Shown in pieces: positions 21,332 to 24,814 of a DNA stretch of 64,000 nucleotides. The notes below the pieces were generated by a model. It searched no databases and was not told the DNA's origin. It saw nothing but the letters and a program-made list of their open reading frames with translations. This DNA comes from Magnetospirillum sp. (lineage in GTDB: Bacteria; Pseudomonadota; Alphaproteobacteria; CACIAM-22H2), in assembly GCA_027532905.1 (NCBI GenBank), contig JAPZUA010000001.1, positions 1,423,950 through 1,487,949 of the forward strand, read 5' to 3'. Positions within the stretch are counted from its first letter, which is position 1; each line of letters begins with the position of its first letter. Position numbers and translations under genes: made by a program.

Positions 21332-22578
21332 GCGCCCCGCGTCCGGCCCCACGCGTCGTCAATTTCGGCTGTCGGCTCAATGCGGCCGAGGCGGCCGGCA
21401 TCGAAGCGATGCTGGCCCAGGCAGGCGACGACGACACGATCGTGATCAACAGCTGTGCAGTGACGCAAGAAGCCGAGCGCGATGCGTTTGCCGCGATCCG
21501 CCGCTTGAAGCGTGCACACCCCACGCACCGTATCGTCGTGACGGGCTGTGCCGCCCAAATCGATCCCGCGCGCTTTTCGGCGATGGCAGAAGTCGCGGCC
21601 GTCGTCGGCAATCGCGACAAGCTCGCACCCGAAACCTGGGCCACGCGTGCGGCCGGCGTGTCCGACATCATGGTGCGGCAGGATTTCGTCGAAAGCGATG
21701 CAGCCCTCGCACCGGGCCGCACGCGCGCCTTCGTCGAGATCCAGCAAGGCTGCGACCATCGCTGCACCTTTTGCGTGATCCCCTATGGGCGCGGGCCCTC
21801 GCGTTCGTTGCCGCAAGCTCGCGCGATCGCACGCGTCGCCGCTGCCGTCGCGAGCGGACGGCGCGAAGTGGTGCTGACCGGCGTGGATCTGACCGCGTGG
21901 GGCAACGATCTGCCGGGCACGCCGCGGCTTGGCGAACTATGTGCGGCCATTCTTGCGGCTGTACCCGACCTCGCACGTTTGCGCCTGTCGTCGGTCGATC
22001 CGGCGGAGCTTGATGCGCGCATCTTCGATCTGCTGGCAAACGAGCCGCGCTTTGCGCCGTTCCTGCATCTGTCCGCGCAAGCGGGCGACGATCTCATCTT
22101 GAAGCGCATGAAGCGCCGCCACAGCCGCCAGCAGATTCTCGACGTCGTCGAACGCGCGCGCGCCGCGCGCCCCGATATCGCCATCAGTGCCGATCTGATC
22201 GCGGGCTTTCCCACCGAAAGCGACTCGGCATTTGCGCAGAGCGTGTCGCTCGTGGAAGCTACGGGCATGGCAAACGCGCATGTCTTCGCCTATTCGCCGC
22301 GCCCGGGCACGCCTGCGGCCCGCATGCGCGCGATCCCGCCTGCCATCGTTGTGCAGCGCGCCAAGCGGTTGCGCGAGGCGGTCGCAGCCGCGCGCGCGCG
22401 CTATCTGGATTCGCGTATCGACAGCTTTGCCGAAGTGCTCGTCGAAAAATCCGGACGCGACGGCCTCGATGCCCAAGGTGTTCGCGTGAAATTGGCGCAG
22501 ACTGCCGCGCAAGGTACGCTGCTGCGCGCCCGCATCGTCAGCCATGACGGCGTTTCGGCCGAAGGTGTGGCCGCATGA
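21328..22578 (+). CDS. mtaB: tRNA (N6-threonylcarbamoyladenosine37-C2)-methylthiotransferase
   Basis: 416-aa radical-SAM enzyme converting t6A37 to ms2t6A in tRNA. The UPF0004 domain has VNFGCRLNAAEA, INSCAVTQEAERDA and VVTGCAAQID (three Cys for the auxiliary cluster). The radical-SAM motif is CDHRCTFCVIPYGRGPSRS, and there is a C-terminal TRAM-like stretch. The reading VVNFGCRLN marks it as MtaB rather than MiaB, which is a separate gene in this window. The ATG overlaps the dapF stop. Confidence 0.93.
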   Translation: MSAPRPAPRVVNFGCRLNAAEAAGIEAMLAQAGDDDTIVINSCAVTQEAERDAFAAIRRLKRAHPTHRIVVTGCAAQIDPARFSAMAEVAAVVGNRDKLAPETWATRAAGVSDIMVRQDFVESDAALAPGRTRAFVEIQQGCDHRCTFCVIPYGRGPSRSLPQARAIARVAAAVASGRREVVLTGVDLTAWGNDLPGTPRLGELCAAILAAVPDLARLRLSSVDPAELDARIFDLLANEPRFAPFLHLSAQAGDDLILKRMKRRHSRQQILDVVERARAARPDIAISADLIAGFPTESDSAFAQSVSLVEATGMANAHVFAYSPRPGTPAARMRAIPPAIVVQRAKRLREAVAAARARYLDSRIDSFAEVLVEKSGRDGLDAQGVRVKLAQTAAQGTLLRARIVSHDGVSAEGVAA

Positions 22579-23504
22579 GTTGGCTCAAGAAACTCAAAGA
22601 CGGTCTTCGCAAATCTTCGGACAAGCTCGTCGAGGGCATTGGCCGCGCGCTCAATCTTGGCCGACTCGACGCCGAATCGCTTGAAGCGCTTGAAGAAGCG
22701 CTGATCGCCGCCGATCTCGGGCCCGCGGTCGCGGCAAAACTCGTCGAAGGCATTCGCGCGCGCAAATTTCCGGCAGGCACGCCGGCCATCGACGTGCGGC
22801 GCGCCCTTGCGGCCGACATTGCCGCGATCTTGGCGCCCGTTGCGCAAACATGGGCGCCTAACGCAGCGAATCGGCCGCATGTGGTGCTCGTGGTCGGCGT
22901 CAACGGCAGCGGCAAGACCACGACGATCGGCAAAATCGCGGCGACGCTGAAGGCGCAAGGCAAATCCGTGATGCTGGCGGCGGGCGATACGTTCCGTGCG
23001 GCGGCCGTGCATCAGCTCGAGATTTGGGGCACGCGCAGCGGTGTGGCCGTCGTCTCGGGCAAAGAAGGGGCGGATCCCGCGGCGCTTGCGTATGAAGCGC
23101 TCGAAAAAGCGCGCGCAAACAACATCGACGTGCTGCTGATCGACACGGCCGGCCGCTTGCACAACAAAGCCGACCTCATGGACGAGTTGAAGAAGATCGT
23201 GCGCGTGATCAAGAAGCTCGAACCTTCCGCACCGCACGACACGATGCTCGTCCTCGATGCGACGATCGGACAAAACGCGCTGCAGCAGGTCGAGACCTTC
23301 AAGAGCATCGTTGCAGTCGACAAGTTGGTCGTCACAAAGCTCGACGGCAGTGCCAAAGGCGGAGTGTTGGTCGCGATCGCGAATCGATTCGCGACTCCGA
23401 CGGTGCTTATCGGTGTCGGAGAGGGAATCGACGACCTAAAATCCTTCGATGCACAAAATTTTTCTGCGAGTCTTTTGGACCTCGTCGACGACGAAAAACA
23501 GTGA
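22575..23504 (+). CDS. ftsY: Signal recognition particle receptor FtsY
   Basis: 309 aa. SRP-receptor GTPase at the inner membrane. It starts MSWLKKLKDGLRKSSDKLVEGI, directly with the N domain, and lacks the long acidic A domain of enteric FtsY. G-domain motifs are VVGVNGSGKTTTIGKIA, AAGDTFRAAAVHQLEIW, DTAGRLHNKADLMDEL, VTKLDGSAKGG and IGVGEGIDDLKSFD. It overlaps mtaB by 4 bases. Confidence 0.96.
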   Translation: MSWLKKLKDGLRKSSDKLVEGIGRALNLGRLDAESLEALEEALIAADLGPAVAAKLVEGIRARKFPAGTPAIDVRRALAADIAAILAPVAQTWAPNAANRPHVVLVVGVNGSGKTTTIGKIAATLKAQGKSVMLAAGDTFRAAAVHQLEIWGTRSGVAVVSGKEGADPAALAYEALEKARANNIDVLLIDTAGRLHNKADLMDELKKIVRVIKKLEPSAPHDTMLVLDATIGQNALQQVETFKSIVAVDKLVVTKLDGSAKGGVLVAIANRFATPTVLIGVGEGIDDLKSFDAQNFSASLLDLVDDEKQ

Positions 23505-23680: not shown

Positions 23681-23709
23681 TTGACATGCCCTTGTTCAAA
23701 ATGATGTTC
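23681..23709 (+). promoter_or_regulatory. Candidate promoter of the Lys/Ala micro-gene
   Basis: TTGACA, an exact -35 consensus, at 23681-23686 with ATGTTC at 23704-23709 as the -10 at 17-base spacing. The -10 is weak, as is common in alphaproteobacteria. It would give a leader of about 130 bases before the small gene's ATG. Confidence 0.35.
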
Positions 23710-23748
23710 TGTCCATGGTCGGATCGTGTTCAGGGAGGGCTCCAACTC

Positions 23749-23832
23749 CGTTAGTGGTCGAAAGTGCAGGGATAAACACCCAGCTCCGCTCCGCCCGCTA
23801 ACGTGCCTTTCCGGGTCCGACTCCATCGGAAA
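23749..23832 (+). ncRNA. Structured leader upstream of the micro-gene (candidate RNA element)
   Basis: CGTTAGTGG (23749-23757) can pair fully, with one G-U, with CCGCTAACG (23795-23803) around a 37-base interior that contains a GGG...CCC mini-hairpin. A second stem, TTTCCG (23808-23813) with CGGAAA (23827-23832), ends two bases before the AAGGAG Shine-Dalgarno of the micro-gene. Pairing is inferred from one sequence only; no known Rfam class is recognised. Confidence 0.4.
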
Positions 23833-23846
23833 CAAGGAGTCACATC

Positions 23847-23897
23847 ATGGCTGCGAAGAAAAAGGCGAAGAAGAAGGCCGCTAAGAAGAAGAAGTAA
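23847..23897 (+). CDS. 16-residue Lys/Ala micro-protein
   Basis: Complete reading frame of 16 codons giving MAAKKKAKKKAAKKKK, followed by TAA. It has the best Shine-Dalgarno in its neighbourhood (AAGGAGT at 23834-23840, six bases before the ATG). It is preceded by a structured leader and a TTGACA element and followed 22 bases later by a strong intrinsic terminator, so it forms its own small transcription unit between ftsY and a hydroxylase gene. Ten of 16 residues are Lys. The sequence resembles the AKKKA repeats of histone-H1-like tails and of some ribosomal-protein extensions, suggesting nucleic-acid binding. It could also be a translated cap on a regulatory RNA. No experimental homologue is known to me. 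Confidence 0.6.
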   Translation: MAAKKKAKKKAAKKKK

Positions 23898-23919
23898 GCG
23901 GCTTCTGCTCGGTGCATTT

Positions 23920-23960
23920 GGGGGCGTGGGGGGTTCTTCTCTCCGCGCCCCTTCCGTTTT
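23920..23960 (+). terminator. Rho-independent terminator of the micro-gene
   Basis: GC-rich stem 23921-23931 with 23941-23951 (11 pairs including two G-U), a 9-base loop, followed by TTCCGTTTT. It ends the unit 63 bases before the next gene's start, so the hydroxylase gene probably has its own promoter or depends on readthrough. Confidence 0.75.
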
Positions 23961-24022: not shown

Positions 24023-24814
24023 ATGGAACACGAAGCTTCATTGCGGCTCGCAATTTTTTTCGGACTGCTGATCGGCATGGCGTTGTGGGAAGTGGCCGCC
24101 CCGCGCCGCCCCGCCACGCTGGGGCGCAAAGGCCGCTGGCCCGCCAATCTCGGCATCGCGATTCTCGATTCGCTCGTCGTGCGCATTTTGCTGCCGGGCG
24201 GTGCGGTTGCGTTTGCGGCCGCCTATGCATCGACCGGGTACGGCTTGCTGCCGCTGCTGGGCGTGCCCGACTGGCTCGCCTTCGTGCTCGCGATCGCCGC
24301 TCTCGATCTGGCGATCTATTTCCAGCACCGCCTATTCCATGCCGTGCCCGTGCTGTGGCGGCTGCATCGCATGCACCACAGCGACGTCGATCTCGACGTG
24401 ACCAGCGGTGCGCGTTTCCATCCAGCCGAAATCCTGCTGTCGATCGCCATCAAGCTCGGCGCCATTGCCGTGTTGGGTGCGCCGGCGGCGGCCGTTCTGG
24501 CGTTCGAAGTGATCCTCAACGCCTGTTCGATGTTCAACCACGCCAATGTCGCGATGCCCGCCTGGCTCGAGCGGGCGTTGCGCTTCGTTTTGGTCACGCC
24601 CGATCTGCACCGCATCCACCATTCGCGCGAGCGGATCGAGACCGACAGCAATTTCGGGTTCTCGGTGCCATGGTGGGACCGGCTGTTCGGCACCTATCGT
24701 CCTGAGCCCGAACGCGGCCAGCTCGGCATGACAATCGGGCTCGATGTTTTCAACACGCGCCAAGACCAGAAGCTCGCCGCCCTTCTGGTGCAGCCGCTGC
24801 GCAAAGCGCCTTAA
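24023..24814 (+). CDS. Sterol desaturase / fatty acid hydroxylase family membrane protein
   Basis: 263-aa membrane di-iron protein. Histidine clusters are HRLFH (about residue 107), HRMHH (about 119), and HRIHHSR (about 197), with a supporting His in FNHANVAMP, matching the fatty acid hydroxylase superfamily. About four hydrophobic helices flank them. The family oxidises lipid or sterol-like substrates at the membrane with O2. The exact substrate is unknown. Its stop overlaps the stop of the convergent NUDIX gene. Confidence 0.88.

Follow-up and report, generated by a model that had tools for sequence, protein, structure and literature searches.

Directly behind ftsY in a 64,000-nucleotide (nt) stretch of the Magnetospirillum sp. 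genome (contig JAPZUA010000001.1, positions 1,423,950 to 1,487,949; hereafter, the window), we identified a micro-gene unit with a 16-codon frame, and comparison with related genomes makes the existence of a peptide gene at this position near certain. The encoded peptide, MAAKKKAKKKAAKKKK, is composed of 10 lysine (Lys), 5 alanine (Ala), and 1 methionine residues. Our favored reading, to which we give a probability of about 0.6, is that this monocistronic micro-gene specifies a free, disordered polycation resembling a linker histone tail, whose charge would let it bind nucleic acid or another polyanion. The unit, its conservation, the coding constraint on its frame, and the pairing within its leader are established by sequence comparison. 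A first-pass annotation of the window had described a TTGACA element, a leader, an AAGGAG ribosome site, the 16-codon frame, and a GC-rich terminator as a self-contained unit that falls under the length cut-offs of gene finders. All of these parts are present in the window, and relatives retain the whole set of predicted promoter, leader, ribosome site, frame, stop, and terminator. The unit and its neighbors are arranged as follows (window positions):

23681-23686, + strand: −35 element TTGACA, inside CTTGACA, which is invariant in relatives
23703-23708, + strand: predicted −10 element GATGTT, after a 16-nt spacer, placed from the family alignment
23719-23726, + strand: 5' arm of helix P1, pairing with 23813-23820
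23733-23740, + strand: 5' arm of helix P2, GGGAGGGC, pairing with 23805-23812, with a 6-nt bulge from P1 on the 5' side only
23749-23759, + strand: 5' arm of helix P3, pairing with 23793-23803
23793-23820, + strand: 3' arms of P3, P2, and P1
23834-23839, + strand: ribosome-binding site AAGGAG, ending 7 nt before the ATG
23847-23897, + strand: micro-gene frame, ATG through 16 residues to the stop TAA
23920-23960, + strand: intrinsic terminator, a 14-pair G+C-rich hairpin (23920-23952) followed by the T-rich tail TCCGTTTT
22575-23504, + strand: ftsY, the conserved upstream neighbor
24023-24814: fatty-acid-hydroxylase-like gene, the downstream neighbor in the window

The order to which the window belongs is represented in our data set by one family of 23 genomes, and the genomes compared were largely metagenome assembled. 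The unit is found in 22 of the 23, the window's own genome counted; in the sole exception (G022, with 8% contamination), neither ftsY nor the unit was found. A search with the intergenic DNA matched each of the ten remaining genomes in the genus as well as most of the family, and the aligned copies carry the frame together with its ribosome site and stop. Wherever the unit and ftsY could both be placed, ftsY lies directly upstream in every genus, while the downstream gene differs between genera (hydroxylase, transporter-like, kinase-like, or a gene on the opposite strand). From the 340-nt gap behind ftsY and the micro-gene's own promoter, we infer that ftsY forms a separate transcription unit. 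In genus g5 (three genomes), a 29-residue histone H1-tail version, MPVKKAAAKKPAKKTVAKKPAAKKTAKKK, occupies the same place behind ftsY and has the same promoter block. Several relatives (L006, L009, L012, and L015) have a transporter-like gene beginning MHASWNAVVKSDPDRLASFG behind the unit, where the window's subclade has the hydroxylase gene. In one assembly, the end of contig G005:C9 and the start of G005:C6 (L010 and L031) break inside the unit and share about 135 bases, which is probably a local assembly break.

Conservation within the unit is concentrated on the frame. Within the frame, ungapped identity reached 96%, whereas the flanks gave 43 to 49%, with 47% downstream of the frame and 43% over the 51 nt that precede the ribosome-site stretch. 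Residues 1 to 10 are identical in all 18 copies compared; in the corresponding codons, all eight variable columns are third positions (p ~1.5e-4), and pairwise codon differences numbered 155 synonymous versus 13 nonsynonymous. Beyond codon 10, the copies vary among Ala, Thr, and Gly and change in length by whole codons, giving peptides of 15, 16, and 17 residues, in addition to the 29 residues of g5. Since all length variants are in frame, charge and composition are kept, rather than the exact sequence. Retained start and stop codons, in-frame insertions and deletions, and the synonymous bias are what is expected of a protein-coding micro-gene. Among 397 genomes sampled across the phylum, a relaxed pattern of the unit matched one, the window's own; thus, the unit is not background, and its conservation and rarity rule out a chance or low-complexity artifact.

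The leader spans about 130 nt between the promoter and AAGGAG, more than twice the length of the frame. On its own, the window's leader has an unremarkable fold stability (z of −0.7 to −1.5), so this single sequence is no proof of structure, which comparison supplies instead. Most of the ten members that were folded share a common form consisting of P1, a 5' bulge of 5 to 7 nt, P2, a 5' bulge of about 8 nt, P3, and an open ribosome site. In a leader alignment made from sequence only (7 rows, 6 of them distinct, from one genus), 94.9% of cells pair, and sliding the partners abolishes pairing; doubly changed cells numbered 12, versus 4.9 in shuffles (0/500). P3 is the most variable helix in sequence, and its pairing is retained, with changes on both sides in 5 of 10 pairs. 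A leader model built from these seven rows finds the leaders of genera g2, g3, g4, and g6 (E of 1e-6 to 1e-17), with a weak or no match for g7; the g5 leader folds with a z of −4.2. A structure-fitted covariation count on a larger set is biased towards the structure and includes some weak false matches in coding sequence, and we treat it as supporting only. Unconstrained RNAalifold on the whole-family alignment recovered only P1 and part of P2, because P3 cannot be aligned by sequence between genera. Judged from these alignments, different genera share the leader's fold, and compensatory changes accompany it. The first-pass annotation had proposed a check of relatives for conservation of the frame or the stem pairing; both were found, in the identical first 10 residues of 18 copies and in compensatory changes beyond those of shuffles. 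A switch sequestering the ribosome site by pairing of GACTCC with GGAGTC, seen in the window's fold, was rejected as not conserved because other members read GACACC.

One reading of this arrangement is a dual-function RNA, in which the structured leader, trans-acting or protein binding, would be the main actor and the peptide a second product. Short transcripts combining a structured part with a tiny frame are known from SgrS/SgrT and SR1/SR1P. Consistent with this reading, most genera share the form of three helices and two one-sided bulges, this form shows compensatory changes, the leader is long, and GGGAGG in its 5' arm is retained nearly letter for letter. However, in contrast to those systems, the structured part here is a 5' leader reaching as far as the ribosome site, and conservation is higher in the frame than in the leader, down to the level of residues. 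Moreover, no Rfam family matches the leader (best subthreshold score of 15.9 bits versus a gathering score of 59.8; E of 0.63), no convincing second copy was found in the genome (next best E of 0.085), and the units of Gamma-, Beta-, and Deltaproteobacteria described below do not match the leader model, although their peptide is the same. We consider a dual-function RNA unlikely. The version raised by the first-pass annotation, a functional RNA with the peptide as a mere by-product, is disfavored, since no other part is conserved as well as the codons.

The signals flanking the leader and frame are likewise retained. GATNTT (GATGTT or GATCTT) lies 16 nt behind CTTGACA in nearly all genomes of the order, as seen in the family alignment; it is not TATAAT-like, and a simple promoter scan of the window found no TATAAT-like −10 element. 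Transcription probably starts near 23715. The upstream block ATTGnnnTTnCTTGACA is retained in relatives, and the motif ATTGAWNTTNCTTGACA occurs in 16 of the 23 genomes, once per genome and always at the micro-gene locus. The window's version of this motif is ATTGTTTTTCCTTGACA, and ATTGTTTTTC precedes CTTGACA there. In 18 copies, the distance from CTTGACA to the ATG is 157 to 168 nt, and AGGAG of the ribosome site does not vary among aligned members of the order. Most copies have a terminator, the sequence of which differs between genera: the stem is G+C rich in genus g1, and other genera have a strong, different, near-perfect hairpin with a T run (for example, GCGTTGGACGG..CCGTCCAACGCTTTTTT) 50 to 58 nt behind the stop. 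In three g1 members, the T tail is short, and a simple script detected no hairpin followed by a T run.

The peptide most resembles the tails of bacterial histone H1-like proteins. It shares the Lys/Ala(/Pro/Thr) tail composition of HC2 (PF07382; NCBIfam NF038053, hist_H1_lk_Burk) and, as seen directly from its composition, is like them a Lys/Ala-dominated, disordered tail. Known HC2 members exceed 100 residues, whereas here the tail motif stands alone, at 14 to 29 residues and under gene-calling limits. The likeness to an H1 tail proposed in the first-pass annotation is supported by the g5 ortholog, which contains AKKPAKK and AKKTAKKK, both of them words of H1 tails, and was picked up at the ftsY locus by the HC2 profile in a whole-genome search (E of 4.6e-5 to 3.8e-4; 21 to 24 bits); this score, like the 15 bits obtained when the peptide was scanned as a protein, is below the curated cut-off of 40 bits. 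No solved structures were found for the 29-residue form. HC2-style proteins of 117 and 145 residues with a ribosome site occur in relatives of the beta- and gammaproteobacterial carriers described below. In L113 and L133, the long H1-like genes are not syntenic with the micro-frames, and a shared locus was rejected. In L118 and L119, relatives of the beta carriers, an H1-like Lys/Ala/Pro tail is fused ahead of an apparent SWIB domain. The AlgP and PhaF tails are likewise disordered, Lys/Ala rich, and DNA binding in vitro (PMC9239181), but they are long repeat tails (Lys/Ala/Pro and H1-like in AlgP) on a folded domain, whereas the micro-gene peptide is free, short, and almost proline-free. In a literature search outside of which most subscription journals lay, neither MAAKKKAKKK nor KKKAKKKAAKKK was found, and AlgP alone turned up as relevant. 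Novelty is judged here against the searched libraries only.

Under the favored reading, a sigma70-type promoter would start an RNA of about 245 nt. In its 5' part, P1, P2, and P3, set apart by bulges, would form one long, interrupted hairpin, and a strong ribosome site, left open, would follow directly after it. The 16-codon frame would then be translated, and the intrinsic terminator would end the RNA. Expression is probably strong, and the leader may serve as a stabilizer or control element. The product would be a free, disordered peptide with a charge of about +10 and no folded domain, acting in the manner of the linker histone H1 tail, or of the bacterial H1-like tails of HC2 and AlgP, by binding DNA, RNA, or another polyanion through charge, screening and compacting it. 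DNA or RNA is the presumptive target. What the alignments show to be retained is charge and Lys/Ala composition, as opposed to exact sequence, which is the mark of H1-type tails, and the most likely role is that of a minimal, free polycation acting on nucleic acid. Several points weigh against this. The g5 matches to HC2 are subcut-off and driven by composition, and the 16-residue form is too short for profile searches. A polycation of this size has low specificity and might be degraded, and sequence alone cannot separate DNA, RNA, the ribosome, and polyphosphate as targets.

Two of these targets correspond to alternative readings. Tiny basic ribosomal proteins of 24 to 35 residues are known, and bTHX, bS22, and bL37 are very short, very basic, and encoded by their own frames. 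The micro-gene peptide could be a ribosome-associated micro-protein of this kind that neutralizes rRNA, which would suit its very small size, high basicity, single copy, strong ribosome site, and position adjoining ftsY, a ribosome-targeting gene. The known proteins are packed in the ribosome and have fixed sequences, many of them arginine rich, whereas here both length and sequence vary between genera, the gene is rare across the phylum, and no sequence relation between these proteins and the peptide is seen here. We regard this reading as rather improbable. It is very unlikely that the peptide instead binds polyphosphate or storage granules. AlgP, with its H1-like Lys/Ala/Pro tail, does sit on and organize polyphosphate granules, and its C-terminal domain is needed for granule spacing (PMC9239181); however, AlgP function involves a long tail and a folded domain, and no polyphosphate or storage-granule gene was recognized adjoining the unit in the loci read.

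Similar frames also recur outside the order. We scanned 84,980 species genomes for a ribosome site followed by MAAKKKAKKK[A/T..]..KKKK, with no stop required, and obtained 24 stretches, 23 of which stop exactly after 16 to 17 codons. Carriers include Betaproteobacteria, Gammaproteobacteria (labeled Muproteobacteria or Acidithiobacillales), two deltaproteobacterial contigs, and one metagenome-assembled genome of Verrucomicrobia. Exact or near-exact frames of 14 to 20 amino acids sit at fixed places in one gammaproteobacterial order and in Betaproteobacteria. In the former, the order of carrier L049, 14 of 57 genomes have frames of 14 to 19 residues with the same upstream gene in all and a convergent murU downstream in 13; the ribosome site (mostly AGGAGCTCATC) and the frame are retained, and insertions and deletions are in frame. 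In five Betaproteobacteria (L038, L043/L117, L056, L112, and L116), the frame lies 307 to 347 nt behind lysA (diaminopimelate decarboxylase). Since the flanks in the window's order and in the gamma, beta, and delta clades have nothing evident in common, these genes need not share common descent, and on these comparisons they may have arisen by convergence or by transfer.

Several further observations concern such frames. Several of the five lysA-linked Betaproteobacteria have a hairpin behind the Lys-rich frame. In the window, the unit has dapF 2.5 kb upstream, and this, together with the lysA neighborhood, is either coincidence or a link to lysine supply. Alphaproteobacterial family f88 (L035, L036, and L037; G312, G389, and G109) has frames of 21 to 23 residues, MAAKKKAKKK[T/V]..KA(K)RK, with a ribosome site and away from ftsY, and G026 has MPMAAKKKAKKKAPAKKKAKKAKKKK. 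Viral contigs (L135 at 812-880, L138, L140, L141, and L147; also L137, L142, L144, and L148) carry micro-frames of 20 to 22 residues preceded by a Shine-Dalgarno sequence, such as MAKKKKKKKKNKKKNKKVKRKR; in five viral contigs, the micro-frame directly precedes a gene starting MPxVGKKKFxYTxKGK. Polylysine peptides encoded by viruses may thus parallel the bacterial ones.

The idea that the frame is an attenuator leader peptide, in which ten Lys codons directly before the terminator would respond to charged tRNA-Lys and thereby regulate a lysine gene lying downstream, deserves next to no credence: lysine genes do lie nearby in two clades (dapF in the window and lysA in Betaproteobacteria), but upstream, and we rejected it because the downstream genes do not fit, since they vary between genera, are convergent in the gamma order, and included no lysine-related same-strand gene when one was looked for in relatives.

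Beyond the free polycation gene of the window's order, we tentatively suggest, at somewhat less than even odds, that stand-alone H1-tail micro-genes of 14 to 29 residues form a general, overlooked class in bacteria. Its members would be near-identical free polycations, retained in four or more proteobacterial groups at loci that differ from clade to clade, with more than one origin and, in the window's order, expression from a structured leader. Skipped by gene finders, they would serve as minimal factors of chromatin or of ribonucleoprotein. Lys-rich frames of fewer than 20 codons under selection recur across classes, and genome annotations likely miss them; the unit also supplies a conserved leader RNA without a match in Rfam. 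If our reading of the peptide is true, the micro-gene would rank with the smallest autonomous protein genes that bacteria conserve, with a pure H1-tail product, and it would become testable whether a peptide with charge and no fold suffices for a role in chromatin or RNA.
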